A DNA stretch of 64,000 bases, taken from contig OX424558.1 in NCBI GenBank assembly GCA_949152475.1, positions 41,036,751 to 41,100,750 of the forward strand, written 5' to 3'. Shown here piece by piece: positions 3,445 through 61,612 of the stretch; within the stretch, counting starts at the first letter, position 1; each line of letters begins with the position of its first letter. The notes beneath the pieces were generated by a model that saw nothing but the letters and a program-made list of their open reading frames with translations, did not search any database and was not told where the DNA came from. A program made the position numbers and the translations under genes. The DNA comes from Terebella lapidaria (Eukaryota; Annelida; Polychaeta; Terebellida; Terebellidae).

Positions 3445-3743
3445 AATAATGGGCCCTATCACATGAAGCCTGATCATAGAACATCATAGTACCATAGTCA
3501 TAACATGTATCCAGGCACTATGACAGCTATACTATACATACGCCCAATAGCAACGTGGTTGATAAGGGCTTTAATTATGCTGCGTTCACTAGAATATGTG
3601 AATATCATGAGGTCACAAGTAAACTTTTGAACACAACTAGTGACAGTTCAAGTGACACATATGACCGAACTCTTGAAATTTGGTGCTCCTGTCCGTCCGC
3701 ATGAGTACAATGTCATACCATTACGAATAGGAGCTTAGCAGCT

Positions 3744-5060
3744 TTGGAGCTTATCATGCACCAAGAGGTCATTAACAAGGAGGTGCAGAAGATGCTCGGG
3801 CCAGACATCCTCAAACCCAGTGATAGCCCTTGGGCCAGTCCTGTGGTCATGGTGAAGAAGAAGGATGGCTCGAAGAGATTCTGCTTTGACTCTCCGAAGC
3901 TTAACAATGTCATGCGGAAGGACTCATATCCTCTCCCCCACAGCAAGGACACCTTCGATTTTTGTGCTTTACACCTGGCCTCAGGGTATTGGCAGGTCGA
4001 GTTGGACGAGAGTGATCGGGCTGAAACAGCCTTTGTCACCAAGCATGGGCTCTACCAATTTAAGGTAAAGCCGTTCGGGCTCTGTAACAACCCCATGACA
4101 TACTAGCATGAAATGGTGCTAAAAGGGTTTCTCTGGAGGTGATGGATGGTCTATATCGACGATGTCGTCGTGTACGGCCGGTCGTTCGAGGGAACCCTCA
4201 CCAACCTCCAAATGATGCTCCATCGCATCCGCGATGCAGGTCTTAAACTCAAGTCTAACAAGTGCGAGCTCTTCACCCAGCAGATCTGGTACTTGCGCTT
4301 TATGGTGACAGGCACATGTGTTCGTCCAGACCCTGCGAAGATCGAGGTCATACAGCACTGGCCCCCGCCTTGTAATGTGGTGGATGTGAGGTCCTTCTTC
4401 GGCTTCGCAAGCTACCACCGCTGGTTTATTCGAGGCTTCACAGAGATCACGCGCCACCTCACTCTCCTCACAGAAAAGGGCGCCGATTTCATCTGGGAGG
4501 CTTCCAAGGTGGTATCTTCTGCGAACCTCCGGAAAGCTCTGGTGGCAGCACCTGTGCTCCGGTACCCGCTTCCCGAATGTGAGTTCATTTTGGACACAGA
4601 CGTGAGTAATTTCGGGCTCGGCGGTGTCCACTCACAGATCGTGGATGGACAGGAGCGTGGAGCGCTCTGAGCCACTCTCAAATGAATTACTACTGCATGA
4701 CTCACCTCGAGCTCCTCGCGGTTGCTACAATGGACAAGCGCTGCCGGCGTTACTTGTTGGGGCGACATATCCAGTTGCGGACTGACCACAGTTCACTTCG
4801 CTGGCTACTCAACTTCAGTGAGGCAGATGGTGGTGGCCTGGTGGCTCGCCAACACCGCGCCAGAATGCAGCATGGCAATGCTGACAAACTATCACGTTGT
4901 CAGAAGTGCAAGAATCCGGATTGCGCAGGAATAACACCATTCCAGCGTGGCGAGGATTCTTCCTCAGACTCGGAACTAGACCTTCCGGGGAGACCGCAGG
5001 CTGCTGACCCTTTAGTACCACAGCAGTCTGGGCAACAAGAGTCAACCCCTCTGCGTGGAT
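3744..5060 (+). pseudogene. gypsy reverse transcriptase and RNase H remnant
   Basis: From 3744 the frame shows the gypsy RT signature SPWASPVVMVKKKDGSKRFC, then LASGYWQVELDESDRAETAF and FGLCNNPMTY. A stop at about 4104 interrupts it. The same frame resumes at 4146 with the catalytic YIDDVVVY box and the thumb/connection motif VDVRSFFGFASYHRWFI. After another stop at about 4668 the frame shifts, and 4682 onward encodes an RNase H-like stretch (THLELLAVATMDKR, LRTDHSSLRWLL) followed by a low-complexity tail. The polymerase motif is intact but the reading frame is not. Confidence 0.85.
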
Positions 5061-5486
5061 GCACCGGTACTGATGCAACCAGCCCGCGTATGATCCAGGG
5101 GTGCTACTCAGCCCCAGCGAGTCCTCCTCGACACCGGCGATGTACTACTCGTGGGTACCCTCCCCGTCCTCGGATGAGTATGCGCGGCAGTTGCCCCCTG
5201 TGGTAATGGCCACTGGCGCGCAGCCGGACGTGACGGATGAGGAACCGACCTACTTGGGTGGCTACTTTCTGGAGCAACTGGCTGCGAGGCAAAGGGCGGA
5301 CAGCACCCTGGAGCCAGTAATGAAAGCCCTTGAGGTGGAACAGAAACCTTCCATGGCTGAGCAGGAGACCTACAAGAAGAGACGCAATCCCTAGTCCCCC
5401 CAGTGGGAATGGCTCGTCCTCCGAGAAGGCCTCCTTTACCGTCGTTGTGTGAGCCTCCACACCCGTTGCCTTCTATTTGGTAACTG

Positions 5487-6330
5487 GTGCTTCCGGCAGA
5501 ACTGCACAGAGACGTGCTCCACCAACTGCACGACCTCCGGGTCACCAGTCATCTCGGTATACGGAGGACCATCCATCAGCTGCAACAGCACTTTCATTGG
5601 CCTGATAGCAGCCTGGACATGCAGAGGTGGTGCACAGCTTGCTTGCGGTGTCAGGCTCGCAAGGGAGTTCCGGCTCCTGACTGCCACCCCTTGACCACAT
5701 TCAAGGTTGGCGTGCCTTTTGACTGGATCACCTTGGATATTCTGGATACTCATCGGGTCCCTTCGCGTGGGTTCAGGTACATCCTGGTGATCTCGGACTA
5801 TTTCACCAAATACACTGATGCCTACCCGCTGTGGCGCCAGGCCGTGGACGAGGTGGCTTGGTTACTGGTGAGTAGGTGGGTGGTGTACCATGGCGTACCT
5901 AAGCAGGTATACACTCGGATCAGGGCACGCGATTTGGAAGCAACCTGTTCCGGGGCCTAGCACAGATGCTGGGGAGTACCAAGGTCCGCACCACCCCTTA
6001 CTGGCCCCAGTCTGACAGACAGGTCGAACACTCCAATCGATTTATCCAGAATATGAGGAGGCCTTTGAAAACGATCGTGCAAATGACTGGGAGTACCACC
6101 TCTGGTCCGTCTTAATGGCGTATAGGTCATCGGTCCACGGCTCCACCGGGATGACGCCGCACGTGATGTTGTACGGCCGGGAATTAAATCTGCCCATTGA
6201 TATCATGTATCCAACTGCAGCAGAAACCGGAGCAGTACCACAGTGCAGTCCCAGTATGTGGAGCCGATTTCTGGGGAGCGCCCACGACTTTGAACGAGCA
6301 CGACTAGATAAGTCCCCTGTTCGGTAAAAG
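5487..6330 (+). pseudogene. gypsy integrase remnant
   Basis: 5487-5960 encodes an HHCC-like zinc-binding start (HLGIRRT..H, CTACLRCQARK) and the beginning of the integrase core (FDWITLDILD, YILVISDYFTKYTDAYPL). The frame is broken near the second catalytic acidic residue. 6115-6327 resumes with MAYRSSVHGSTGMTPHVMLY, the usual end of the core. Frame breaks between the two blocks make it non-functional. Confidence 0.8.
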
Positions 6331-10768: not shown

Positions 10769-13195
10769 ATGACGACGTCAGGATGGGAGCGGTTTGTTCG
10801 TTCCCTGAGGCCGGGTACCTCGGATGTGGATTGGTGTGAACCTAACTACGTCGTGACCTCGTACATCACAGAGTTCTACAACACGGTAAGTCAGACATGT
10901 ACATCACAGAGTTCTACAACACAGTAAGTCAAACATGTACATCACAAAGTTCTACAACACGGTAAGTCAGACCTGTACATCACAGAGTTCTACAACACGG
11001 TAAGTCAGACCCGCGCCGCCCTTAGCGCCTCGATCGTTGTCAGGGCACTCATACATGCGGTCACTGTAGTGTCGTGGAACCGATGTGTCTCCTAGGTGAC
11101 GAACGCGCTGTACGTGTTGCTGCCGCCGGTGATGATGTGGTTGTTCCGGGAGTACGCGCGGCGTGTGGGGCCGGCTTGCCACGTGGTGTGGGGCCTGCTG
11201 ATGGTGGTGGGGGCGGGGTCGGCTTACTTCCACGGCGCATTGAGTCTGGCTGGACAGCTGATAGACGAGCTTGCTATTCTCTGGGTGTTCTGTGCTGTCC
11301 TCGCTCTCTGGATACCCAAGTACTTGCTGCCGAAGTATCTCGTCACCAACAGGTACTTCGCAAGAACCTCAGTCGCTGCTTATTTGGGCCATAGACATAC
11401 TTAAGATATATATATCTGGAATATAAATGTATATACATTTGATTCACCAGTACAACATAGCAGGTAACTTTTGCTCGAGGAGCACCGATACCATCTGGTG
11501 TGTTCGCAGGCGTGTGTTCCAGACGATCATGTTAGCGCTGACGATCCTGATGACATGGCTTGGATGTCTCTATCCCGTCACCAACCACATCGTGTTGATG
11601 TCCTTCAGTGTCCCGGTGGCCGTGGTCGTGTACAAGGAGGCTCACAGGTACTGTACAAGGAGGCTCAGAGGTACACGCTCCTGGCTGTCCCAAAGCGTGG
11701 AGTAGACCAATTCATCTATATTATGTGATAACACACATTCAAATATAAAACAAGCTCAAGGGTATGAATCTAAAGGATACAATTCCAACACATCATCTTT
11801 GCAACGAGTAAAGTTGTTTGCGCCATTCTTGTCAAAGCCGAATATCAAATTGAACGTGTTCCGGTTATCTACGATTTATCTTGAAAAGTGCACTCCATCT
11901 TATAATATTGTGCTCGAAGCGATTAATGACAACTCCATGAGCCACAACTCTAGCGTCTTACGGGTCTGTCTAGTATAAAAACAGGACGGATCCATGGAGT
12001 AATTCATGATAGCATCTGACCTGCCACTGCGGCCATGCACTTGCTGCTTGGCAAGGAAAGTCACTCACAGACAAGGCCCGACTGTGAGCTGTTTGCTTCA
12101 AGAAAATCTCTATCGGAAGTATTGTAACCGAGAAACGATATTGATATTTCATGAAGCGTTAGTGCTTTTGTCCTTACCATCATACAAAATAAAAAGGTCA
12201 TTTTGGGAGGCATTAATGGCTCGATGGCTCGAGAAGGTCTTGGGGGCGATTAGTTGGCAATCAGAGACGCTGAGAAATCCAAATAAAGACTTTGTCGATC
12301 GATGTTGTTCTAAGATTTTGATAGAAGCAGTCCGAGGTATTGGTTGCGAGAGCTCGGGCTGATCACAACGAGACCATTGATGGTTAGACCTGAAGCTTCC
12401 ATGCAAACATCCGGCTACATCTGCCCGATTTGGTGATGGCATCATAATGAACCGAAGCACGTTTTGTTCGGGTCCTACTGTACTTCCACTTCTCACGAGA
12501 CTATTCTCACAAGGACACAGAGCACAAACATCACATTTGTCCACGCTACGAGTCGATCGTGTGGCACGTTTAAAACTTGGCACGAAAATCCTCACGGCAT
12601 TTCAAAAACTGGTTCACACAAGTAGGCTATGTGGGACGCATACCTGGTAACTCAAACTAGACAGGATAGGGACGAACTAATCCATCACCGAGAAAAATGA
12701 ACTCATACACGTGGCAAACAAATTACCCACACAAATCAGAGTGACAAGGCGCTAGGAATGACGCAAGAAAAGCCTCAATATACCAGATTGGCATAAGAAG
12801 GATTGCCAAATTATATGATAACCGTTGAATCTCTATTCTATCTATTCCCCCACAGCTCATCGGAGGAGCGAGTACGGTGGCTGGGTCGGCGATCCTGCCT
12901 GGTCTGGGCCGTGGCCTTCACCTGTTGGATCAGCGACCGAACGATGTGTGGACTCTGGCTGTACCTGGGGTTCCCATACCTTCACAGCGTCTGGCACGTC
13001 ATCATGGCTTTCGGCGCCTATGACGTCGTGTTGTTTCTGGCCTTCAAGGACACGGCGCGGGAGCATGGACGTCTGCGGCCTGAACTCGGACTGTGGCCGA
13101 CCGGCTGGGAGAGCCTCGGGGTCATGTACATCACCTTCAAGTCAGCCCTCCCCGTGTACACAGACAGTAACAGTAACAAACTGAGGAGGGAATAA
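10769..13195 (+). CDS. ACER: Alkaline ceramidase (ACER family), complete, four exons
   Basis: Integral-membrane amidase that hydrolyses ceramide to sphingosine and fatty acid in the ER/Golgi. Exons: 10769-10885, 11096-11352, 11510-11647, 12856-13195, giving 283 residues (family members are about 265-275). The start is the first ATG in frame with the family hallmark DWCEPNYVVTSYITEFYNT. Zn-site and catalytic residues are all present: Ser81 and His85 in SAYFHG, Asp96 in IDELA, and His214 and His218 in PYLHSVWHV. The motif CWISDR is at 194-199. Hydrophobic segments are spaced as expected for a seven-helix protein. Intron phases are 0, 2, 2. Two of its three 5' splice sites sit in short tandem duplications (10862-11013 and 11630-11675); only the first donor in each keeps the frame. 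The 1.2-kb intron 3 holds a chance 148-codon antisense ORF. The ACER1/2/3 subtype cannot be settled by eye. Confidence 0.93.
10862..11013 (+). repeat. 38-bp x4 tandem duplication across ceramidase exon 1 / 5' splice site
   Basis: Four consecutive 38-bp copies start at 10862, 10900, 10938 and 10976. Each contains the last 24 exonic bases (TACATCACAGAGTTCTACAA then CACG, or CACA in copy 2) followed by GTAAGTCA. Four near-identical consensus donors therefore follow one another. Reading on past donor 1 meets an in-frame TAA within copy 2, so only donor 1 yields the ceramidase frame. Confidence 0.95.
11630..11675 (+). repeat. 23-bp x2 tandem duplication across ceramidase exon 3 / 5' splice site
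   Basis: GTACAAGGAGGCTCACAG|GTACT at 11630-11652 is followed by a near copy, GTACAAGGAGGCTCAGAG|GTACAC, at 11653-11675. Both contain an AG|GTAC donor. Use of the second adds 23 nt and shifts the frame. Confidence 0.9.
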
Positions 13196-16268: not shown

Positions 16269-18465
16269 ATGAAGAAATTGCACAAAATGCAACTGTTATT
16301 ACTTGGCTTAACGTTGCTTTGCTTGGGAATTTTTGCACAATTTCCAGGTAAGAATTTTTTTTTTATATAAATATATTTCCCCATATTTGGAAAAGTGAGT
16401 GATAAATATTTCTTGACGGTACATCTTTCCACGAGTCTTCGATATTATCCCACGCATGCTGACATATATTGTCACATAACCACCTCGCCCTGTGTCCCGC
16501 TGACAGAGACGTACAAGGCCAGTCAGTGCTTCAAGAGTCCTGGTATCCCACAAGTATCCTTCTCGTGTCCGCCTGACAACATGATCAAGATCAGCAAGGC
16601 GTTCCACGGGATCGCGGCGGACGAGCGCCGGGGACCGGAGTCGGCCTGCGTGCCCAGTCCGGGCCACGAGCACAAGAACTGCACGTTCTGTGCCGGCGAC
16701 TGTGTGGACGACTCGATGAACCTCGTGTACGACTGGTCCACCTGTATGGGCAACAGTTCCTGTCACCGCACCGTCATGCAAAGCTATATGCCGGAGTGCA
16801 AGGGCCCGGACAAGTTCAGCGACTACCTGCAAGTCGAGTACCAGTGTGTGCCCAGTGAGTCCAATAATACCGTAGAACATAAGTAAAACAAGTGAGAACA
16901 GGAAGTCCGAATCTATCAGTCATTGAACGAACGGATCCAGACTCTCAATGCCAGATTTATCCATTTATCACAATTTAAAAATTCACACTTTTTTTTTAAT
17001 TCGAGCAAACGGTATGTGATTATTACTTTGATATTGCCTCGAGACAAATCCTTATAATGCCCATGATTACCCCGTCTCCTACCTTCTGACAGGGAACTCT
17101 GTCGTTGACATCTGCAGCCACGTGGAGGAACAGTGGCAATCTGAAGGCGGCTTCCTGATGTCACCTAATTACCCTCGCCACTACCCCACGGATCAGGACT
17201 GCGCCTGCACGCTGAGTACCGACCCGGGCTCCAAGATCGTCCTCAGCTTCTACGACCTGCTGCTCGAGACCCGCAAGGGCAGGTGCCGCGCCGACTGGCT
17301 CATGCTGAGACAGAACGACCAGGTCAGCAATCAGTCTTAGCATGCCAAAAAACAATCCAAGGCACTGAATGTAAACTATGCCAAATACTATACCCACAAT
17401 GGTTTTTAGTTTTTGTTGACAATTATATTACACCAGAAAATTGTGTGTATATATTATGAGACAGAGTAGCACTTTGAGGGACTAACTGGAGTAGTCATTG
17501 TGTTTTTCAGAAACATCGTCATTGTGGCGCCATTATGACGGGAACCAAGAACATCACGTCCGCCACCAGCTCCCTGCAACTCCAGTTCCACTCTGACTCC
17601 AACAACAACATCACCCAGACCTTCCAGTACTTCACGAGGGTGCTCAAGGGCTTCTGGCTCTACTACTCAGGTATGTAGTCTCTACTACTCAGGTATGTTG
17701 TCTCTACTACTCAGGTATGTAGTCTTCACCACATTGGGCTAAGTAGGAGGCATCATCCGTCGAGTGCATTATATCATACCTGTCTTTGTTTCTGAATTTC
17801 TTTCTTGGTTGATTTGAGTTCGCATTTTGTTGTGTTTCACTGTAGCAAGCATGCGATCACATCGGCATATACCGGCTCCACGGATAGGTTATTTTACTGT
17901 TCCATACAAACTTCATGTTTATGTTAACAATCTGATGTTTTTGTGTTGATCACCTCTGATATATACGTGTAACTGTTCAGCTGTTCCGCGGTCGAGTGTC
18001 AAGATAAGCTGCCGAGTGCTGAACCCTAACGACCCTTCAGTACGCGAAATCTGGTTGGACGACTCGGACTATGACGAGCTAATCAACACAAAGGAGACAA
18101 AGGGGCCAGACGATTCGACCAATCAGGGAGCTGGTGACATTGAGGACCCGGAGACTGATCGGGCTGGAGCGGACGGGAAGGATGAGGACGAGAAACTGTC
18201 AGATCCGGACAGCAAAGAGAATGAAATTTTGGAAAAACCCGACAAAACAGACTTGGGAAAAGACAATGGTGGTTAGTACAAGACTGTATGATAATTGTCT
18301 GATACGTTAAATGACAGAGCTGGCATAACAACGAACTCACAAGCTATCTTATCTTTTACAGCTGACTTTCAGGAAGGCAAGGAACCTCACAAGTCATCGA
18401 GCTGCAAGACTGGGGTCTCTGTGACTACTCTACTATCGCTCACCTTTATGATGGCGATTCACTGA
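16269..18465 (+). CDS. LCUB-A: GPI-anchored lectin-CUB protein, six exons
   Basis: Exons: 16269-16347, 16507-16854, 17093-17322, 17511-17670, 17981-18271, 18362-18465; 403 residues; intron phases 1,1,0,1,1. Residues 1-23 are a signal peptide (KMQLLLLGLTLLCLGIFAQF). Residues ~34-141 match the SUEL/Gal_lectin fold, with ten Cys, YDWSTCMGNSSC and YLQVEYQCVP. Residues ~149-272 are a CUB-type domain (GGFLMSPNYPRHYP, CAC, CRADWLML, HCG) split by a phase-0 intron. Residues 290-365 form an acidic linker. The C-terminus (SSSCKTGVSVTTLLSLTF..) has small residues then a short hydrophobic end, as in a GPI signal. Probably an outer-leaflet recognition protein; the ligand is unknown. The usual lectin YGR and DPC motifs are absent. 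The donor of exon 4 is in a 22-bp x3 repeat. First of four paralogues. Confidence 0.85.
17658..17723 (+). repeat. 22-bp x3 tandem duplication across LCUB-A exon 4 / 5' splice site
   Basis: CTCTACTACTCAG|GTATGTAGT repeats at 17658, 17680 and 17702 (copy 2 has GTATGTTGT). Each copy carries the end of the CUB exon and a GTATGT donor. Reading through donor 1 gives TCA GGT ATG TAG, an immediate stop after the CUB domain, so donors 2 and 3 would encode a form lacking linker and anchor. Confidence 0.95.
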
Positions 18466-20979: not shown

Positions 20980-21513
20980 TACAAAACGTAGGGGTTTGAT
21001 AGTGATAGGCAATATAACTTATAATATGTAAATTATGGAACTAATAAATACATATATTCATGCATATATGATCGGATACTAGATGGACTTCCGGGTGAGA
21101 TACTGCTTTCAGCTACATTGAAGTCTGCGGGCAAATATCGACAGATGGGGTCCCATCATAAGCCCTCGTAACTACGGGCCATGCTCAATGAGTCATAAAA
21201 CCGCTTGGAAAATAAATCGATTGATAAAACCGCGGGGAAAATCCAAATGGTTGAACTGCAGATCATCACCGTGCAGTTGCATCAATAAAAGGCCATAATC
21301 CTGTGGGATCTTGATAACACGTTAGTAAACGTCACGCGAACACAGTAAAGATGGCAACACACTATATTTTAACAGGTAACTATTACAAACAGTACAGTTA
21401 TGCCACGCTAGAGCCTCCTAACTTACACATGACAGAGGTGACTTCAACCCACGTGTTAGGTAACCTATAACCATGGTTATATTGCCTATACACTGTAGGT
21501 TTGATTGAAGACC

Positions 21514-23081: not shown

Positions 23082-23511
23082 ATGTCACTAAATTCATTCT
23101 GTCTGTGTGTTGCAGTAGCTGCGCTGGTGACGCTGGTGGGAGCGCGCCCCCTAGTGGACGTGACGTCGCCCTGTGGTGGGTCCGAGGTGACTGGTACTGC
23201 CCCACGCGTGGGATCCAAGGCCCGTACGACCCCCCGCCAGACCTTCTTAACACAGTTGACCGCCCTCCGTGACATCTCCACAGACATTAGAAACAAGATT
23301 GTCCACCGAGCATGGGTCAGTACACATGGGTACAGTTCTTGGGAGTACACAGAGGTATTTCCACGTGCGAACGTGATAACCTTAAATGCTTCCATTTATG
23401 TTTTCTTCGCGCATGTCACCTGGTGTGTTTCCATATTGGGGTTACATCACCTAAATAACTTGGTGAACAAGTTCAGACCGTTTGAGGTCGGATTATTCGT
23501 TCAATGGAAAT

Positions 23512-23549
<38 letters not shown>

Positions 23550-25211
23550 CTAACACTGTCACAGTCGTAATAAATTTCTCCTGTTTTTGCACACACAGGG
23601 CAATGATACAGACTCTCTGCCTTTCCTGTCTTGGCACTTCCTACTAGTTCACAAGTACAACACCTCACATGACGGTATCACGGCCGCCTTGAACCACGTG
23701 AGTGTCAGTTTCATTTACACCAAGTCTTATCCAATCATAATTGGTGTAACGCTAGATGTGATCACACGATTCTTGAATTGCCCGAATTTATACACGTAGA
23801 ATATACTCTTCAATATCCTTTTAATCAATAAAAAATTTCTATTCGGAGCATGACTTTTATCCTTATAAGTATAATGTATTCTCTGGCATTTACAGAGGCC
23901 GGAGACGATGCAGGCGTTGATGTGCGGCCTGGCAAATTACACCGCATGGTTCGAGCAGATGACGCGGACGGAGACACTGTGGGGGCGGCCGGATTCCGAC
24001 CAGTACCGTCCGGAGACACTAGCCCTGGAGTACCGTGCTCTGATGGCCCGACTCGCACCGCTCCTCTGTACCACTTCCAACTACCTCGCCGTCTGGGGCT
24101 ACCGACCCCCGACAAACTGTCTCCAACAGGCCAACAGATTCCCATACAGGTGAGATCGCACATATGGTGACATCATTCGAGGCTTATCCCTCAAATTTTA
24201 CACACTGTCTGCCCCAGGTGGCGTCGTGTGGCTTCAAATGATGATGCTTGGTCTGGTTCTGTGCACAGCGCTGCACTGAATACTAGTATGTACATCGCTG
24301 TACCGACTCGACTCCACTGTCTGCAGCTGGCCAGGCATAATGACCATTTTGATCCAAGTATTTGGGAGATATTTAACGTGCTGCTGGTCAATGCATTCCA
24401 AAAACTGCATCAACTGTTGCAGTTACCGTGCAGTCACATCACTGCAGTCTTAGTTCGGCGATCCGGCGATTCCTACCGTAAAACAAACTGACTACTCATT
24501 TCCACATGCATTTCCACATTAGTGGAGGATTTGTTGACATCTGGTGCCATCTTCTGGATAGTTTGCGTGCTCAGGTTAGAGGTCAAATAAGTACTCTGCA
24601 CACTTCATCGAAGTCAAATTATATGTGCATATGTATGCGCATATAAATTGACCTCGACCTAATATGCAAATATTTAGCTGACATCTGACTTGCGCATGCG
24701 CCCAATGGGATATGGCGACTCAAGATATCAACAAAACCCGAAGAAATGTGTGTGAAAATAAATGGACATTTGCATTATTTTGATTGCCTAAGACGGCAGC
24801 GATGTCGCTGCACGCTAGCTGCAACAGCGGCAGATTTCGGAAAGCATTACACGATAAATATGCCTCAAATACTTAGATCAAGATTGTCATTTTATCCGGT
24901 ATGCAAGTATTCAAAACAGCGCCGTGCACAGGAAGGTCTGATCTGTTCCCAGTCCAATAGTATAGCCGCTTTATGCTTTCTATTCGATTCATCCTAATCT
25001 TGTGCCATCCGTAAACGTTGACATAATGGGTGACAACGATGTAAAATTCGATGTTTTAACCACACAGACACGGTCCATAACTTGAGTGTGTTGTATCTCC
25101 CACAGATCCCCGGTGTCGAAAGCCTTCGCCGACATGATGGGCTACGTCCTCATCAACAGCTTCGAACGCAACTACCTCAGCTTCTACGAGTCGTTCATCA
25201 GCCAGGCTTAG
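23082..25211 (+). CDS. Secreted four-helix cytokine-like protein, four exons
   Basis: Exons: 23082-23315, 23599-23697, 23896-24149, 25106-25211; phases 0,0,2; 230 residues. Residues 1-21 are a clear signal peptide (CLCVAVAALVTLVGA). The mature part has four amphipathic, helix-favouring segments at about 51-77, 112-139, 149-178 and 199-228, joined by Pro/Gly/Asn-rich loops, with a long A-B link carrying its own short helical stretch. That is the layout of long-chain class-I cytokines (IL-6/CNTF type). Four Cys (31,121,169,186) could form two disulfides. N-glycosylation sites are at Asn80, Asn99 and Asn125. A DG-I motif just before helix B recalls DGM of CNTF; this is only suggestive. The ORF ATG at 23082 is taken as start; alternatively the TTGCAG at 23112-23117 is a real acceptor and the signal peptide starts in an unseen upstream exon. 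The gene model is firm from frame continuity; the cytokine assignment is inference. Confidence 0.72.
23513..23549 (+). repeat. (CAAT)n microsatellite in intron 1 of the cytokine-like gene
   Basis: About nine CAAT units. Read on the minus strand this is a (GATT)n tail, as on the insertion at 1695-1830, so it probably marks a reverse-oriented short retroelement. Confidence 0.85.
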
Positions 25212-26517
25212 AACCAGCTGCCGAGTCGGGTGTGGTACAACCAGCCACACTTGATACATATATCATAATACATACATCGTACTGTGCTCCCAGGCCAAAG
25301 TTGTAAAGTTGTAATTTTCTAAAAGTATATTTTGTATTTTACAATCATGTAACGCGTTCACTAGTGTCAAGTTCATATATTATATGTAAACGTCAATATG
25401 TACATGTTCTGGGACCCCTTATAGAGTGTGGTTTCAGAAAATAGTCATTCTTAATTGTGGATTATATGTATGAGCCAGTTACAAAAATTGTTTACTATTT
25501 AATATTTTTATTTATGTTATAATGATAATCATTTTGAAAGTTGTATTCACGTTTTTGGGTATTGGATCATTTTTTGGATCGTATTTACAAACAGTATTTA
25601 CACACTCTTATGATATCACTCAGGATTTATTTTTGTGTTTATTTATGCGGGACATTCACAATAAAATTGTTATTGTTATGATTACGTTTATCACTAAACT
25701 AGACATATGTATTTGCTATACACCACAGTATGTGAATGCTCCCTTTATACATACACGTAGGCTATATATTGAAGATGTTTTCGAACTATTTAGGATTGTT
25801 TTGATGATATTTTTGACACCTCCATTTTATATTGTTTATTTATTCAATAAAGATGCTTTATGTCTTCAACAATTAACGTTTTATGCATTGTGGCTTGATA
25901 TTACACTACACTACACTCTACTTAAATACCATTGAGGTGTCGTGCTATCTTCTCGTATGTAGTAAATGACATTAATTTCTAGTCTGTATATTAAAGACAT
26001 ATATGTATAGAACTCGCGCCTTGCGCACTGGTATGCGCTTCAATATTCGAGTGATAAGCCCTGAAAATAATCACTGCTGCTTTCAAACACCAGAGACACC
26101 AAAGATAAACTGGTCGTGTATCTAACGGCATTTTTATCGTCGGTTCTTGTCGCTTCTATTGTCGACCATAAGTACCAACAGGACACCTAGACAGCTAAAA
26201 GTCACTCAGGGGTCTGCCCTAACATTTAGGATTAATAGGATTGATGCTAACAATCAGGACACATTTTTATAAAGAATATTTCTCCAGTGGCTATTTGACA
26301 TCGTATACAACATGATGTAAACAAAACCTTGACTCGAGGTCATTTCAGGTCAATGTCAACAGAAGATACACCTACCGGTACATGTATAGACTTGAGTCTA
26401 CTATATAGGCCAATACAAACTTGAGGTCAAACATATTCCAGATATATCGAGTTAAGTCACTATTTACACGACAGGTGATGATAGACTTTTGATAAATCAA
26501 AAATTGAAAATATTAGT
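25212..26517 (+). other. 3' flank of the cytokine-like gene, AT-rich
   Basis: AATAAA occurs near 25659 and at 25846-25851. A 137-codon frame at 25522-25935 is extremely AT-rich and hydrophobic, with no domain I recognise. I read it as 3'UTR or non-coding. Confidence 0.4.
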
Positions 26518-27841
26518 TTGTCGTCGACAGTTTTCAACAATTTTCCATCAAAAGTACTGTTAAACGAAAGTGCTGACCGACAGTTGTTGTGGGACACTAT
26601 TAAAATGAATACTAGAGGAAGGAGTAGTACAGTGAGTAGATATAGTGCTAATAAAAAACGCTATAAGAACAATTTGTTATCTGCACTGGAAAGGAGACTT
26701 TAAGAATTTACAATCTGAATAATATCATAGAACAAGATGCTGATTTATTGATCTATATTCAGCAGGTTGAAGATAACATAAATGAACAGACACAGGGAAC
26801 AGAACATACACAATAACAAGACAGACACGAGGCTCATTGCGATTGCGATGCAAACGAAAATGGCATGAAGAGGGCGAGAAGTCCTCTAAATATTTCTTGA
26901 AAGATTGAAAGAACATCTCGATATAGTCAGGAGTATAAAGTTACTATGCCCAGTTTGACGACAGATACTCAGGAAATTGCCGTTATTCGTGCATGAAAAC
27001 AGTGGATAGAGGATGATCGGCCTGCCTACATTGCCGGTTGCCACAGTATCTAGACAAATACAAATGACGCCTTGAGACTGTGTGTAGAACTCGCTCGCAA
27101 CGCGGGCCGCTTAGAGAAACAAATTGATGTGACCAACTCGATTTAGGCACGGAATACATATTTTCAGAACCATATTTGTATTGTTTCTCATTCTATAGAC
27201 AAAATAAAGCTACTGCAGAATGAATAATTTTTGTCAATTCTAAAAGTGGTTATAGCTTTAACACTGACTATAAACTCATTGCAGCTACTATAGCTGCTAG
27301 GAAAAAACATTTTTTGAATAAAATAACACATACAAATCAAACAGGTTTTATTAATGGTCGATACATAGGCAAAATCATTCTTAGTATAATCAACTTGATG
27401 GAATACTGTGGTGAAAATGAGTTTATTTATATCTATAGATTTCGAAAAGGCCTTGGACATCCTGCAATGGAACTTTTCAATAAAATGTTTAATCAATTAA
27501 ATAAAATATAATTAATTGAATAAAAATAATATATGCAAATATCTCTAGCTGTATTTTAACCAATGGTTGGTACTCCAAGTTTTTTACTCTTAGTCGAGGG
27601 ATGCGACAAGGTTGTCCCCTCTCTCCTTACTTATTCATTATTTGTGCGGAAATACTGGCTGTTCATATAAATTCAAATCCAGAGATAAAAGGAGTCAATA
27701 TCGGTGGTGCAGAATATAAGGTGAATCAATATGCAAATGGTATGGCTCTAACTCTACAGTACTGTGAGAAATCTCTGCAGACTCTGTTTGAGGTATTTGT
27801 TTGTTTCCAGAAAATATCGGGATTGAAAATTAATAAGAGCA

Positions 27842-29434
27842 GGTTGTCACCAACAGGTTATCGTCATATATGGACCAAAATCAACTGCACGACCCACTGC
27901 AGTCAGCCTACAAAGCGGGACGCAGTACCGAGACAGCACTTACCAGAGTACACAATGACCTCCTGTGTACTATCGATAAGCATGGAGTCGCAATCCTCAT
28001 ACTCATCGATTTAAGCGCTGCCTTCGACACTGTAGACCACAGCGTACTACTTGACAGGATGCAAACCTACCTCGGAGTTGGTGGTACAGCCCTCAGCTGG
28101 TTCAGGTCCTACCTGTCAGGGCGGGTGCAACAAGTCCGTGTCCATGGCTCTGTTTCTTCACAAGTACCCATAAAGTTTGGCGTGCCTCAAGGGTCCGTGC
28201 TTGGCCCGATCTTGTTTCTCATCTACATGCTGCCTCTTCGCCATCTCATCGGGTCACACGGATTGGAGATGCATGGGTATGCTGACGACACTCAGCTATA
28301 CTTCACATTCTCGAAGCCGAAAGACATTTCTTCAGTCAAGGCAGAGTGTGCTAAAATAGAACACTGTTTGTCCGAAATCCATGCCTGGATGACCTCAAAT
28401 ATGTTGAAAATAAATCCGGAAAAAACTGAAGTCATGTTGCTTCGCAGCAAAGCAGCCCTCTCCAAGGTTGACATCTCAACAATACAGTTCGCAGGAACTA
28501 CTGTTCATGTCACCGTTGGTCCTGTGCGGAACCTGGGAGTTAAGTTTGATGCTGCTCTGAGGAATGTCCTCTCAAGTCAACCAAATTGTCAAGTCCGCAA
28601 ACTTTCACCTTCGCAACATTGGTCGGGTTCGTAACAAGCTCACAACAGCTTCAACCAAATCTCTAGTACACTCACTAGTGATCTCCAGACTGGATTATGG
28701 GAACAGCCTTCTCAGTGGTCTAACTTCTGATCAGACCTCCAAGCTGCAAAGTGTGCAAAACAAAGCTGCTCGGCTCGTTACGAAAACCGCACGATGTCAG
28801 CATATAACACCCGTGTTAAAAGCACTTCACTGGCTTCCCATAGAGGCTCGCATCAACTTCAAAGTGCTCCTCTTGATCTTCAAGTCGTTGAACAACTTGG
28901 CCCCACAGTATCTCCAAGAACTGTTGACTAAGCACGAGCCAGCCAGGTCCCTCAGGTCAAGTTCACTTGACTTACTCCAAGTCCCGCGTTCTAACATGAA
29001 AACTGTCGGGGACCGAGCCTTCTCAGTCTTTGGACCCAAACTCTGGAACACTGCCACTCAGTATCAGACAATCAGATTCTGTTTCATCTTTTAAAACTAG
29101 CCTCAAAACCTACTTTTACAAGTTACACTACCTTTAATTGTTCTCTAGTCACTCACAGTCGGTGTATCTTACGTGTTCCTATATCCTGTTATTCTAGTCA
29201 ATGTATTTAAATGTTGGTTTTATGTTCTCTAATTCTCTCTTTGTAAACTGTATTCTCTGTCAGTGTATTTTACATCATTGTCAGTCACGTATACTAGTAT
29301 TTACTCATTGTCGGTTTTAAATGTATTAATTCAAATGTTCATGTATACATCAGTATATACCATGTAAAGCGCCCTTGAACATTGTACCATGAAAAGCGCG
29401 CTATACAAATGTCAATTATTATTATATTATTATT
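27842..29434 (+). mobile_element. CR1/Jockey-like non-LTR element, 5'-truncated, nested in the L1-like element
   Basis: Reverse transcriptase: DLSAAFDTVDHSVLL, FGVPQGSVLGPILF and intact YADDTQLYF (28278), then KINPEKTEVMLL. One frameshift near 28570-28630 separates it from the downstream domain (SRLDYGNSLLSGLTSDQTSK, LQSVQNKAARLVTKTAR, LKALHWLPIEARINFK; 28564-29094). The tail AAAGCGCGCTATACAAATGT plus (ATT)n is typical of this group. The endonuclease is missing. Flanks are AGCA at 27838-27841 and 29435-29438, and removing the insert restores the L1 frame. Confidence 0.9.
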
Positions 29435-33603: not shown

Positions 33604-36342
33604 ATGGCTATCATAAACCCTGGACAATGGCGGACACTCGTGTTTGGTTTTGTATCCCTGGTGCTCGTGCTGACCAAATCCTTGCAGACTTCAGGTAATA
33701 CACCCGGAATTCGTGATAAGTTATATCTATAACTTTATAAATGTCCCTTCAGATCCATTATAAATGAGAACAAGTACTATACGAAGATATATTATACTCT
33801 GGAACACGTAAAGTGACCAATCCACACACTGGGACACTCAAATATCATGAATAAAGGCTAATGAAATGGTCGCTATATCTGACACCTATGTCTCACCTAT
33901 GATAACTACCCTCGCCCCCACCCAGAAGCTAAGACGGTTAGTCAGTGTCACGGCTCGCGATCCTTCACCTTCGTGTCGCTTTACTGCGGCTTCAAGAAGG
34001 TGATCCAGATTCAGAGAGCGTTCCATGGCGCGCACAAGAACGAGGTGATCTCGCACTGCGGGTACCTGGCCGAGGACTGCACCATGGATACCACGCACCT
34101 GTACGACTGGGGGCAGTGCGAGGGCAAACACAGCTGTGTACAGATGATCGATCCCAGACAGCTGGAACCGTGTCCCCAGAGACAGATGGCCTACCTACAG
34201 GTCCACTACGCATGCGTACCAGGTATCGATACTTTTTGGTTGAATACAAATTTGTTAATTGTACAATGTATTATAAAACGCACAGAAACAAAACATCACA
34301 GAAATAAATACTTTATCCCATTACTATGCTTGACGCAGGGACAGCGTACATAGCGCGCAAGTCAACCACCACGACAGAGCGTGTGACCGACCCGCCACCT
34401 AGCGTCGATATCAACCAGCTGGGAGAAGCCACGGACTTCCTGCTGCCAGTGCAAGGCAGGAAGCCAGAAGCCAGCCCACAGAAGCCAGGGAGTAGCAGCA
34501 CGGCTGCGATCTCCACCACACACAGCTCAGGTGCTGGTCTCGGGGAGAAAGGTGTTCCGGAAGATAATCCTGAACTAATAATTGTCGTATTGATCCAGAC
34601 GCCCAATATATCAAATACATTAATCGTTTTGGGATTATTGATCTCCCTACCTTCACATTATTTCATTCATGCTTAGCCTATACGTGCTTTCCTCATTCTG
34701 AAAGATATCTTGCTTCAATGCTTCTATACGCTTTGGTGTAGTTTTACTCCATATTTTTTCCACCCACAGACAGTAAGATGAACAGCTGCAAGGCTGAGTT
34801 TAACATTAGAAGTGTGTAACAATTGTTTCTGGACTATCTGACATTTGTGCAGCTGAGGCGTATTCGATTTGCACGAACGAGACATGGACAGCAAGTGAGG
34901 TGTCCATTACCAGCCCAGGCTTTCCAGACTTCTACCCCGCGGACACCGAGTGTCGGTGTGTCGTCAAGGGCCTGTCCGACTCCAAGGTACACTAACTCCT
35001 CAGTTTCCTCAACAGCTGTGGCCTAGGGTCATGTGAATCTGACTATCGACGTCATCAGTATTACCTACGTAAATCTATATAGTGAGTCACACCGATACAT
35101 GATTGGCCTTTGCTGTGCATGTGTGCAGTGCTGTCTGTGCATTGAGTAGTGTTGCCTGTACTCGCCAGGTGGCTGTGACGTACCAGGCGCTGTCCCTGGT
35201 GATGCGGGGAGGTCAGTGCGTGGATTGGCTACTGTTACAGTCCCTCGGCTTCAAGGACTCGGCCGCTGTCACTTGTGGCCAGATGCTGGGCAAGGAGAAG
35301 ACTCTGATGGGCAAAGGCAACTGGCTTCTAATGCACTTCCACACCGCTAGGGGCAGCACTGCGAGATCTACCAGTGACGTCAGAAACATGCAGGGCTTCA
35401 AGGTCAAGGTCAAAAGTAAGTGCCCCGTTCTCATCGTGTTTCCCATCAAGAAATGCGGATTCTGATTAAGCCACCATCACGGCCGTATTTTTTAACCACT
35501 ACAAGTATGTGTGTACCTCCCCGAACAGCACAGCCCAAAGGTCCGTTTGACATTCAGTGCTACCCAACACCCCCGGAAGTTCTGCAAACTCTCAAATATA
35601 AAGACAGTCAACGTGAGTAGACTATATCTATAACTCACATATTGGATCAATAACAACAGGACACAATCAAGATTAATTGCATTGTACAGAGATGAATTAT
35701 GATTCATGTTATTCCATTTTCAGTCGATATTAACAACAATACAATCGTACCTCGATTTGACATTAATGTGTTAGGTCAGGCGTCAGGTAACATAAACCAT
35801 GTTATATCTCGTGTTTGTTGGGTTTTCTGTAACACCTCGTCCATGTGGACATCTACTTCCTGTGATCGGCTGCGCGCGCAATCGCACCTGTCACTCTCAG
35901 TCTTTCACAACTTTCAGTGACTACATCTAGATATTCGGCTGTGTCTCTTGGTGATTCTTTGTCAGACTGTTTAAGCACAATGTCTCCACAGGCATTCTAC
36001 GATATCTCTAAACTTATACAATTAAGATATCATTTGGCTGAATGGCAGATGAATCTTTGAAGGATCATACTCTTATGTTTGGCAGTGGCGTGTCATTTAT
36101 ATTGCCTGTGAAAAGTGTGTGGTTCAGTGAATCGCCGAACCTAATTTAAATTTCTTACCCTAACCTAACTTAGAAGTGTTTGCAATATAATGAAACAGAT
36201 CTTTGAATGTGTTCATGTAATGCGATTTATCATTGACTGTTCCCTACTATTTCCAGGTTCCACGGGATCTGTCCACACTTCTGGTTCACTCTTAATGTGT
36301 GTTGTCTTGTTGCTGGCGGCCCAAGTCTACAGCCCAGCATGA
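33604..36342 (+). CDS. LCUB-B: GPI-anchored lectin-CUB protein, eight exons
   Basis: Exons: 33604-33694, 33926-34222, 34339-34530, 34853-34986, 35169-35415, 35529-35612, 35724-35786, 36257-36342; 397 residues; phases 1,1,1,0,1,1,1. Residues 1-30 form a signal peptide (TLVFGFVSLVLVLTKSLQ). The lectin domain is at ~37-129 (SQCHGS, FKKVIQIQRAFHGAH, YDWGQCEGKHSC, YLQVHYACVP). A S/T/P-rich spacer exon (130-193) separates it from the CUB domain, unlike LCUB-A. The CUB domain (~194-320) has CRC, GQCVDWLLLQ, TCG and a phase-0 intron inside. Two short exons form a second linker. The C-terminus (TSGSLLMCVVLLLAAQV...) fits a GPI signal. The two small linker exons (35529-35612, 35724-35786) are the least certain; frame and phases support them. 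Confidence 0.78.
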
Positions 36343-39740: not shown

Positions 39741-42700
39741 ATGTCAACCTGGCGACATACCACGTTATTAGTTGTTCTCCTTCGCGTTTGTGCTGTTGTG
39801 TTCGGACAAAATGAAGGCGAGTATAAATACAATCCCTAAGAAAACTGAATCGTAGAAGAAAACTGAAACATACATATTTGCTTAGTAATCAGAGCAATAA
39901 CGGTGTTTGGTAAATACTTTGACTAAATACTTTGCCACGATCCCGTCATGCAGTGTTTGATGTATCAGAGTTCCCACGTGTCCGGACGGCGAGTCAGTGT
40001 TTTCACGTGGCCGGGATCCCGACGGTACAGTTGCGGTGTCCAGGCGGTCAGCTGGTGCGGATCCAGCAGCCGTTCTACGGGGCGCCGCCCAGTAACGCCA
40101 GCTGTGGGTACACGGCGGGCGCCGGCCACTGCGTACAGCTGACTGACATGACCGACAACTGCATGGGCCGCTACATCTGCTCTGTCTACATCAGCAACCC
40201 ATTCCTCGTCACCTGCCAGACATACGCCAACTACATGCAAGTCAACTACACTTGTGTTCCCAGTAAGACACGCCAACACCACCACAATAACAACAAAAAC
40301 AACAACAACAACAATAACTGTCACAGTCACACACACCATCAACAACAGCAAATACTGAAGAACTTTTAACTTTCTGGTAAAAGAAATTTGAGAAAATCAA
40401 GTTAAGGCGTCAGTATTGATAATACATGGTATATATTTCCACCCCATGCCCCTTAGAGCGGCGGATATTCGACATGTGTCAGGAGCATACGATGACAACA
40501 AGACACGGCTTCTTGAGCACTCCCAACTACCCGGATGCTGACTACGGTCCGAACCAGCACTGCCGGTGTCGGCTTCAAACCCAGGACTCTGGCATACTGC
40601 TTCAGGTCTGTAACAGCTGAGCTAAATTCCGATCCCCGGCCGACACCAATCAAATACCCTCTGTAATTGGATGCACGAGACACCAATTTGTAACAGCTCA
40701 GGGCACTTTCCTGTAATTGTTCAAGCGTGCCAGGTGAATCATTATCATTGTCAAACTGATGTAATGTAAACTGTCCTCTAGCACGACTCAGCCATATGTA
40801 GTAATTGTCACAAATGTTTTAGTTACATGGGCTTCATGAACACGCTGAATGGAAGCTGAAAAAAAAATCGTGAAAGCACAGACGAAAAAAATAAATTTGA
40901 GGAAGTATTATGCGTAGATAAAAATGAAATAGATCCACAATTAGTTCCACAAAAGAGTTCCACAATTCATTTGTGTCTAACAGGAATACGTTGACCCTGT
41001 ATATGACTCCCGCAGCTGTTGGACTTTAGCATCAACCACACGGAGCCGGGTGTGTGTGACACTGATTACCTGCGGGTATCTGACTGGGGAACCAAGTGTG
41101 GCTACATCAACCCCCACCGCCTCCCGGAGTCCCTCAGCTTTAACAAACAACAGGTTTTCCTGGAGTTCCGCTCGGACGCCAGGCATCAGGCGCGAGGCTT
41201 TTGGATAGAGTTCAACGGTACGACAGCGGTGTATATTTACCGTATTAGACATTGGTAGTAACTCCTCCTCTCCTCTCCCTAAAGAATTCGAATTTAAAAA
41301 AAAAGGCTTATACTGAACGTGTCATGTGTAATGTACCTGTTGTCAGGCGCAGAGGGCGGTAAGGTCAAGCTCACGTGTACATCCACCGACCTGTCCGAGC
41401 ATGGTCACAGAGAGGAGATTCCCCCTGAGCGGGGAATCCCCGGCAGTGTGGACCCGAGCCTGGAAATCGAGGAGGCGGCGCCGACCGAGAATGGGCTGGT
41501 CATCATCGAGGACGACCTGGGGGAATACAACCTGGCTGACGGCAACCACATACAGCAGTCAGAGGAGAGTCTAGAGACCGTCCACAAACAGCAGCCGGAG
41601 GACAGTCTAGAGACCGTCCACAAAGTCAAGCAGAGCAGCCTTGACAAAACAGCCGACCACAACGAGGTATCCAGCAAGACTGGGGGTGACGTCAGGGACG
41701 AGGGAAGCGACGACAAGAATTACGACATCGACGAAGGTATCTTCTTCCACTCAGGCAAAACATAATTTCACTGCATATTTTCCGTTGCTTGCCTAATTTG
41801 CAGTCGACTTCTCTATATTGTGTATGTTTGATGACTGACATATTTTCCGTCAAGTAATTTGTATTTGATGGCTGAATGGAAATGACTGTCTGTGGTGTGT
41901 TTCAGTTGAGATTATCACTGGGATCGTGGTGGGAGTCTTGATCCTTATTGCCGTCATCATAATCATCGTCCTCGTCTTCAGGAGGTCAGAGTCTCGCAGC
42001 ACCCATCACGTGGTCATACTGCAGTCATTGTGTGTTTTTAGGTTACCATATTATGGTCCTATAACCTATTGTCATGGCGTTGCATCCGTCGGCCGTCCGT
42101 TGTCCGCCCATCGTCCGTCCACATTTTTATCTTTAAAGTTTACAGGCGATTTTCTCAAAAGCTGTCTGATCAGTTTTGCGATTTTCATTCCAGAAGATTC
42201 CACTCATGTACCTACCTTGATGTGTATGAGTTTTGTTGCTTGTTTGTTTGTTTTTTTCCTTGAATCGCCGGTCCGTGCGTGGCGGCCGAAATAAAAAAAA
42301 ATTGCCCCAAATCGCGTTACTATCCATTTTGGGCCATTTCTAGGCAAAAAAAAAAATTCACCCTTTCGAAAAAAATTGGACTTTTTTCCCTCATAATGGG
42401 AGCTGCCACAAATGTACTCACACAATGCCTGAAGATAGAGCTTAGATATTGGCACTTTCAAAGAGGATGTCATGTATGACGTGTGGTGACCTTGAATTCG
42501 TGTGGTGACCCTGAATTTGACCTTCGGCGACCTTGGAAGGCCAAAACACCCATTTTTAGTCAAAAATGCCTAAATTTGCCTCTACAGATAAAATGCCTGT
42601 AGATAGAGCTGGAACAGCTAATGATGACCTTGAGCTTGACTTATCTTTTGGTGACCTTGATCTTGAATTAAGATGACCTTGAAATGTGTAAATTGTCCTC

Positions 42701-52600: not shown

Positions 52601-55600
52601 TTCAATAAGGATTAAAAAGGTGCGAGACGGATTAAATGGTATGTTTTCAGTGAACGAGTAGTATTAAGGAGCAGTGTACGGTACTTGGGCCCAAAAAAAT
52701 ATCGTGGGGTTGCGTCACAGCTCTACAAATACGACGTGGTATTACCACCAGGGAATTGACCAATCAGGATCGCGCATTTTCAGCAATCCGATCATAAAGT
52801 TCTACATATTATATGCCTATTAGTACTCACTGAGTCATATGGTCTATTAAGGAATTAACTGACTTATTTTAGTACATATATTGTTTCTAAAATGTATCCC
52901 AGACTATTCATCTATATTACACTTGAAACGATGCTGCTGCAAAATGTCCAGCTGTATAGATATTTATTTGTTGCCCAACTGTATAGTAGTTATATGTGTC
53001 TTACAGATCCAGAGCGGCGGTTCGCGTGTTGGGGCGGGTTCGGGCCGCCAGTGATATCGGCCCAGTGCCCCCGGGGTACGGTGATCCAGGTGGTGCAGGC
53101 CGGCTTGAAGGTGCGCCGGGGGTCGCCGAGCTGCCAGTACCAGGATGCCGACTGTGGCTGTGAGTACAGTGCGCCTGGCTGTAATATGCCAAACGTCCGA
53201 GAGCTGTGCATGGGACGCCCCGCCTGCCGCCTTGACGTCACCCAACAGTACATCAACACACAGGACTGCAGAGGATTCAGTGACTACATGTTCATCGACT
53301 TCAACTGCATATCCAGTCAGTCAGACAGTGAAAAATCCATGCTTATATGTCATTCCTTATTCCAAACTCCAACAATAGACACGACCTGCTTTGAGTGATT
53401 TGATATTGTAACAGCTGGTTATACAATATGCAATGTTTCATAGGTTTTCCTTTTCAATCATCAGTGGAGCGGACGTCGGTGCACGATGTCTGTTTGACGG
53501 ATGTCATGGTGTCCCAGGCTGGCTTTCTGCGTTCCCCGAACTACCCACTATCTTACCCAACAAACCGCTACTGTATGTGTAACCTGCGCACTCTGCCAGG
53601 CCACACACTGCACCTCTCCATCCTGGACCTTTCCGAGCGAGCAGACCCCGGGGACTGCCTCCACAGTCGACTGAGCGTGCGGGGACCCGACAACACCCAA
53701 CTGTTCTGCGCCAGCACCGACCAGAAGGAGACACGCGAACTAAACACCGACAGATCAGCCATATCCGTCGTCATGGAAACAGATGAAATCGAGACTTCCG
53801 GGGGTTTCTGGTTACAATACAAAGGTGCGTGTTCAACTTAGTTCATTGTCAACCTGTATCAAAAGTTACGACTGAATTAGTTAACATCCTTTTGCAATAT
53901 ATCTTAGCGGAGCCGGCCGCCACTGTACAGATGGAGTGCTTTGGCCAGTTCAAGAAGGATAATCCAGCAGAGAGCCCGGATATCAAGCTGGAGTCTATCA
54001 TGGAGGAAGCCAGGCCACCAGCTTCTAGCACATTAGACATCGATACCCAGCTGTCACAATCTGGAGTGGATAGTCTGCCACCTAATGAGGCACCAGTCAT
54101 AGAAATCATAGATCAGGATGTCGAAACACCGACAGAAGTTGTAGAGCAATCCTCAGCAGAGAATGCAGAGGGAGAGGAGGAGGAGATTATGCAAACTGCT
54201 GAAGAAATCAACATGGTAGATGACGACCAACCAGTAGAAGAGAGCTTAGTCTTGCCAAGAGACCGAGAAATCCTGTCAAAACATTCTCTGGACACAGTTG
54301 AGCTGGTTACAGATCAGACTGTGGCCGAGGACGACAGTGAGGCTGGAGATCCAGCGATCTACACTCATGAGGAGGACGACTCTGTACACGACTTACAAGA
54401 GTTCATCCGGAAGATCGAGAAACAGGATTTAGCAAGTGAACGGAATCTAGAAAACAGACAAAAAGACACTCAAGACAGTGTAGTCACAGTTATTCCTAAC
54501 CCACAAGAATACGACATTTCAAATATAGAAATTCCTCAAAACTTTGAAACAGAATTTGGTAGGGCACCTGGATTATATGGACGAGATCAGAATGAACTTA
54601 GTGACAATATTCAGAATGAACGCATATCACCTCGAGTACTACCGAGAGATGCTCGAGAGAACAGTGATGCTCCTCGAGGTGACGGCAACAGGCTCGCAAT
54701 AGAATTCAGGAACAAAATCCAAGAATCATTCAATAGATACGGAGATAACCCACAACGGCAGATCGAAATAAACCCTGAACACAGGCACATCCAAAATGAA
54801 ATGAATCCAATTCCGCCACTGCGACGTTTGAGACAAGGACATGGTCAGCGTCAGAACAGGATACCACTTCACATGATCAGCAGCAGTCTTCAACAGAATC
54901 TAGAAACAACGACGGAGCGTATGCCGTGGTGGTGGCGATACACCATCCGAGACGAGTCCCGACCCATGAGACCTGGGAGTGATCGAACACGTGATCAAGT
55001 GCTGCAGCATGACAGAGGCTTTTCTGAAGACTTGTCACACCGCAGAAATCAGAAACCTATCATCAATTCTGAGCACCAACAGCGACTTGACAGAAGTCGC
55101 CACCCGCCGCCTCAGGCGAGAGACCTCGAGGTGCCGCCTCCTGGACTGCACCCGAGTGTACGCGAGCCTGCTGAGGTTCCCTTCCCGGGACCAGAGCCTC
55201 GACTGGCTGCAGACAGACCCAAGTTCTATCATAACCCTGTGGGTGACGGCCCCGTCCAGAACAACCAGCTCTCCCAACCTATAGACGACCGTCCAGCCCC
55301 AGTGGTGGACCATATAGGCAAGTCTGCCTCCTTTCACTCCAGGCACCATACCACAGATAGCAACCCACATAGACTCACTAGACAACACTCCCGTAGTAAT
55401 GTATCCGTGTTGAGAATAGACAGAGACCGAAATAATCCCACCCACCCTCCTAAATATTCATCTATCTATAAACATTCTGGACCTTCTGACCTACCTAATC
55501 ATTATTCACCTTCACTCAAATTAGAATATTCGAAAATATTAAGAGAGGTGTCGGAAAATTATAGCCCTGTAGACGAATTCAATGTAGAACCTAGTTCCAC

Positions 55601-60364: not shown

Positions 60365-61612
<1,248 letters not shown>

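Follow-up and report, generated by a model that had tools for sequence, protein, structure and literature searches.

A candidate class-I-type four-helix cytokine gene and its paralog family in the annelid Terebella lapidaria

The window, a 64,000-nucleotide stretch of the T. lapidaria genome (OX424558.1:41036751-41100750, contig C4 in a searched genome of 761.6 Mb and 438 contigs), contains a cytokine-like gene that belongs to a family of at least six members: the window gene itself and five intact-looking paralogs. Judged from sequence, both gene and family are well supported, and this support comes from the recovery of the exons by a profile built without the window gene, the exon plan of the paralogs, their alignment and the dN/dS of two paralog pairs. 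The gene probably encodes one of a family of secreted, long-chain, class-I-type four-helix cytokines acting on gp130/LIFR-like receptors, although here the pairing of ligand and receptor is inferred. Such a family is the simplest account of the gene plan, the layout of cysteines and tryptophan, the clustering of the genes and the receptors encoded in the same genome. As a possible non-vertebrate cytokine of IL-6-like kind, the window gene is a good candidate that is still unproven.

Four exons running from an ATG at 23082 to the stop at 25211 can be joined on the forward strand, and the open frames, GT/AG borders and intron phases (0, 0 and 2) are as the original prediction described them. The splice sites are good when judged by eye, and the GC content of the four exons is 0.605, 0.505, 0.618 and 0.547, versus 0.381, 0.323 and 0.439 for the introns. 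Both wrong frames are stopped in the first two exons, whereas each of the last two leaves one wrong frame open, which makes open frames weak evidence by themselves. The joined exons encode 243 residues, and the length of 230 given earlier was a miscount. The ATG at 23082, which had been taken as the start, is probably intronic, with the exon beginning at 23116 in phase 1. This start is favoured by the TTGCAG immediately 5' of 23116, which constitutes a 3' splice site, by the intron-like GC of 23082-23116 (0.371) and by the presence of a phase-1 acceptor at the corresponding position in all five paralogs; coding from 23116 likewise opens with the last two bases of a codon divided by the intron. 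The earlier hint that an upstream exon is joined here was right, and the junction it gave, 23117, was one base off.

The likeliest first coding exon, which we infer to lie at 21351-21375 on the forward strand, would supply MATHYILT plus one base and ends in a phase-1 donor (CAG/GTAACT). In a first round of scoring it was one of four candidates tied at the top; in a second it came fourth (7.64 versus 8.67, 8.67 and 8.47), and the three starts that outscored it use one common donor, 3 kb upstream of the 23116 acceptor. It is preferred because of its signal-peptide-like reading and its start context, AAAGATGG. Including this exon gives a five-exon gene (phases 1-0-0-2) with a product of 240 residues. 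Exon 2 (23116-23354, entered in phase 1 and left in phase 0) carries the remainder of the putative signal peptide, a motif termed SPC-G, predicted helix A and the beginning of the A-B loop. This is followed by exon 3 (23599-23697), a 33-residue A-B-loop exon with an invariant Trp and phase 0 at both ends, by exon 4 (23896-24149), which holds predicted helices B and C, an invariant Cys within helix C and a phase-2 end, and by exon 5 (25106-25211), which encodes predicted helix D and the stop; all are on the forward strand. A probable 3' UTR spans 25212-25865 of the same strand, with AATAAA at 25660 and 25846. It contains eight ATTTA motifs versus 4.1 expected from shuffles (P 0.046, a weak excess), and the 3' flanks of the five paralogs contain 2 to 5. 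AU-rich elements were rejected, being weak here and without a counterpart in the paralogs.

A run of SUEL/rhamnose-binding lectin-type exons surrounds the cytokine-like gene, at 16371-16886, 33883-34353, 39923-40369 and 52859-53398 on the forward strand (one above and three below the Pfam cut-off), and a CUB-domain exon at 53404-53841 (forward) comes after the last of these. The window also holds a ceramidase-family exon (12797-13195, forward), a reverse transcriptase (Pfam RVT_1; 27837-28634, forward), a guanylate cyclase catalytic-domain exon (61210-61653, reverse) and, at 3705-5960, a region that resembles a retrotransposon polyprotein by eye.

A genome search that took the window protein as its query gives 14 matches at E <=10: four to itself, five to paralogs and five others. 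The paralogs lie at 14.657-14.797 Mb of the same contig, 26 Mb from the window gene, and match it at E-values of 3.3e-11, 3.6e-8, 2.7e-7, 1.8e-5 and 0.118 with 25-32% identity; each match places helices B, C and D within one stop-free exon. Three of the other matches (L010, L012 and L013; E 2e-4, 0.144 and 0.144) were rejected as chance matches with internal stops and the motif absent, and two further ones, on C15 (E 0.144) and C3 (E 1.15), fall outside that rejection. A search with one paralog returns the five cluster genes and the last exon of the window gene (E 0.03), and no match at E <=1 on other contigs. Upstream paralog exons and decayed copies were read from 200 kb around the cluster. 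At least three decayed copies, at 14.668-14.670, 14.799 and 14.804 Mb of contig C4, sit beside the intact-looking genes, and the cluster seems to turn over through duplication and loss. By eye, the cluster region is also rich in transposon ORFs.

An alignment of the six proteins, in which the paralogs are 23-28% identical to the window protein, shows three features that are invariant in all six. These are a Ser-Pro-Cys and Gly before helix A (the SPC-G motif), Trp100 in the A-B-loop exon, and Cys179 within a Leu-Leu-Cys of helix C; Cys28, too, is the same in all six (240-residue numbering). Since this alignment includes the window gene, a profile was rebuilt from the five cluster genes alone and searched against the 1,671 ORFs of the window. 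The three best matches are the forward-strand exons 25106-25211 (E 6.7e-9), 23896-24149 (E 3.8e-6) and 23116-23354 (E 9.1e-6), with the next-best ORF at E 0.18; three of the four exons searched for are thereby recovered, and the 33-residue A-B-loop exon at 23599-23697 is not among them. The dN/dS of two close paralog pairs is 0.18 and 0.49, calculated with the first exon excluded and without a significance test. Hydrophobic starts could be modelled in four of the five paralogs, and within each close pair a short hydrophobic exon 1 is held in common (MIGFAVIS/MIRFAVIS and MDRVLSTIFVF/MNRVISTLFVF). As the pairs are recent copies, this likeness lends weak support to the proposed exon 1 of the window gene.

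Two gp130/LIFR-like class-I cytokine receptor loci are found in the same genome, L046 at C3:52.50 Mb and L047 at C9:6.49 Mb. These were kept from four IL6Ra-bind (Pfam) matches, all below the cut-off; L048 was dropped as unlike a receptor by eye and L045 for having no ORF of >=55 aa nearby. The C3 exon matches 56 distinct PDB sequences at E <=10 (best E 1e-5), and 53 of these are class-I cytokine receptors, the rest being NDUFA8 and two titin chains. For the C9 exon the figure is 21 of 22 at E <=0.1 (best E 5e-5), with PTPRF as the exception; in both counts many entries are versions of the same few chains. The chains matched include common gamma, gp130, LIFR, CRLF1 and the prolactin receptor, and the two exons score 25.0 and 25.5 bits with Pfam LIFR_D4, for which the cut-off is 25. 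Downstream of one receptor, further fibronectin-III-like exons are seen by eye within 3 kb, and a WSXWS motif was not found in those 3 kb. Exons upstream at both loci look Ig-like; Ig-type Pfam matches occur at L047 only, all below the cut-off. In addition, the genome contains a STAT gene (L044, C14:8.70 Mb), whose Pfam STAT interaction domain is above the cut-off at E 2.3e-13. The seven internal stops in this match fall between two readable exons, the first of which looks STAT5-like and the second of which, by itself, matches STAT_int below the cut-off (E 1.2e-4, 22.9 versus 26 bits). Together, the receptor exons and STAT give indirect support to membership of the window gene in the IL-6/CNTF type.

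The window protein, at 240 or 243 residues, has by eye a hydrophobic N-terminus with either first exon, in keeping with the length of about 180-240 residues and the secretion expected of a long-chain class-I cytokine. The four cysteines and three N-glycosylation sites noted originally are indeed there, at 31, 134, 182 and 199 and at 93, 112 and 138, respectively, with two more cysteines in the first 12 residues (243-residue numbering). The layout consists of helix-length segments: the A-B loop is long, the B-C link is short, a C-D loop follows, and helix D ends at the stop. A single-sequence AlphaFold2 model of low confidence (pLDDT 42, pTM 0.35) has long helices at 51-82, 126-148, 163-190 and 211-242, plus shorter ones, and the long helices follow the order expected for a four-helix bundle. 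Helices C and D, previously placed at 149-178 and 199-228, were off by about 13 residues relative to this model. Averaged over the family, the hydrophobicity of helices B, C and D has a periodicity of 102, 100 and 92 degrees, respectively (single P 0.063, 0.005 and 0.087), and the 100-degree periodicity is absent from helix A (P 0.9). The four segments combined give P 0.0066, with the segments having been picked after the model was known, and for the window protein alone the helical moments of all four helices are no better than those of shuffles. The picture of a secreted, helical protein with a long A-B loop and a C-terminal helix D is supported by the paralog alignment, the periodicity of B, C and D, though not of A, and the low-confidence model.

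The family has no clear relative among known sequences. The window protein alone finds nothing in Pfam, PDB sequences or 5.8 billion proteins. The six members have no real match in Pfam, and their profile gives only two chance helical matches in PDB sequences, one to Thermoglobin (E 0.027) and the other to an uncharacterized protein (E 0.11). The profile was further compared by hhalign with 19 human sequences, of which 13 are class-I cytokines and six are other helical proteins, including IL-10. Here, IL-11, CLCF1, IL-6 and GH1 take ranks 1-4 of the 19. The best score, 19.6 for IL-11, is reached by 0.8% of 240 shuffles (with 13 cytokines tried), and those of CLCF1, IL-6 and GH1 by 1.7%, 7.1% and 8.3%. 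The paths of IL-6 (B to B and D to D) and IL-11 (A and B to A and B) are in register, and the CLCF1 match spans only 10 columns. Shuffles score as high as 27.7, and CNTF in reversed order, at 26.2, scores higher than every real cytokine. The IL-11 and CLCF1 matches were therefore set aside as evidence, even though both exceed 95% of shuffles. In sum, the IL-6/CNTF-type membership assigned in the original prediction was not established by these searches, as neither Pfam nor PDB sequences gave a real match and no profile match to the 13 human cytokines is convincing.

This lack of detectable kinship in Pfam, PDB and hhalign would be compatible with the family being instead a lineage-restricted set of secreted helical proteins, such as hormones, carriers or humoral effectors, that are not class-I cytokines and do not act through gp130-like receptors. 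The missing periodicity of helix A and the pLDDT of the model fit this reading as well, as does the frequent occurrence of phase-1 introns close to the signal peptide among secreted proteins (PMC1626468). It is nevertheless an unlikely explanation, because the correspondence of exons to helices, the long A-B loop and the positions of Cys and Trp are those of long-chain cytokines, and because matching class-I receptors exist in the genome.

The gene plan was judged against the vertebrate one. In IL-6 and G-CSF, a phase-1 intron interrupts the signal peptide, the A-B loop is on a phase-0 exon of its own and helix D comes last; in LIF, a phase-1 intron in the signal peptide and a phase-0 intron after helix A are followed by B, C and D in one exon. 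The family agrees with the former in its five-exon plan: all six gene models have a phase-1 acceptor inside the signal peptide (those of the paralogs read by eye), and five of the six have a separate A-B-loop exon of 33-34 residues with phase 0 on both sides, which is fused in the sixth. It agrees with LIF/OSM in the phase-1 and phase-0 introns and, in the five paralogs, in the single exon for B-C-D. It differs from LIF/OSM in having the A-B-loop exon and, for the window gene, a phase-2 intron that splits off helix D. The phase-0 introns earlier taken as typical of class I are real, yet the plan does not single out that class, since phase-1 introns near the signal peptide are common in secreted proteins and class-II IFN-lambda 2/3 have a similar plan, in which a phase-1 intron comes after a short first exon and the introns beyond it are phase 0 (PMC2654155).

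The latter resemblance bears on whether the family belongs to another branch of helical cytokines, either GH/EPO/leptin-like or class-II, IL-10/interferon-like. Sequence does not discriminate among these, with GH1 standing beside IL-11, CLCF1 and IL-6 at the top of the 19 and none convincing, and genes of the IL-10 family have introns between helices that leave codons whole (PMC2654155). Such a placement is improbable all the same: the receptors found match class-I chains, in a search that covered class-I receptors, and having one Cys ahead of helix A and another within helix C is a LIF/OSM-like arrangement. In LIF and OSM, the segment preceding helix A is disulfide-tied to helix C (PMC10022904); in the present family this pairing is predicted. 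Similarly, the invariant A-B-loop Trp parallels the conserved site-1 tryptophans CNTF W64, CLCF1 W94 and IL-27 p28 W97 (PMC10022904). Like LIF and OSM, the family has a long A-B loop; unlike them, it shows no convincing sequence or profile similarity to known members. Its predicted disulfide placement sets it apart from IL-6 and G-CSF. LIF, CNTF, CLCF1 and OSM contact LIFR through an FXXK motif (site 3) where helix D begins, and by eye this motif is found in none of the six aligned proteins; the window protein has an F without K at +3, and two paralogs have a Trp nearby. Finally, it is scarcely credible that the gene is a mere chance exon chain or a decayed copy. Several cluster copies have decayed, the gene is known from DNA alone and it has no close paralog for dN/dS; against this, its exons are recovered in order by the paralog profile, their frames are open, splice sites are present, and the protein retains the invariant Cys and Trp.

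In the preferred reading, a class-I-type cytokine family, the window protein would be secreted through its signal peptide and would fold into helices A-B-C-D, the A-B crossover being long, and a Cys28-Cys179 disulfide (240-residue numbering) would link helix C to the stretch ahead of helix A. The glycosylated ligand would then cross-link class-I receptors of the gp130/LIFR/Dome-like kind, which would result in STAT signalling, and a role in immunity may be supposed. By description, this resembles the insect Upd proteins, which are secreted invertebrate ligands of the gp130-like receptor Domeless (PMC7378365); Upd2 homologs have been annotated in Drosophila species only (PMC5385356). The gp130/LIFR-like receptor exons and STAT also recall the IL6R/Domeless-type receptors with JAK and STAT of Mollusca. 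In contrast, a 2026 survey that used BLAST at E 1e-5 and 30% identity found IL6 in vertebrates only and allowed for alternative ligands in molluscs (PMC13203501); the family would fail these criteria. A survey from 2021 did not locate any invertebrate member of the IL6 superfamily; it cites earlier reports of IL6-like proteins, namely Drosophila unpaired-3 and a protein of the sea star Asterias forbesi (PMC8226699). Among the matches listed from the open-licence literature, none names a family of class-I-type cytokines from molluscs or any other lophotrochozoan group.

More tentatively, and at somewhat less than even confidence, the family may be the ligand set of an invertebrate gp130/LIFR-like receptor-JAK-STAT pathway and homologous to vertebrate IL-6/LIF cytokines. 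If it is, both the ligand and the receptor of IL-6-type signalling would be older than the split between protostomes and deuterostomes. The family supplies query sequences that are out of reach for BLAST-based surveys, and since one genome combines a clustered, ligand-like family with STAT and matching receptors, just a few proteins would suffice to test how IL-6-type signalling arose.
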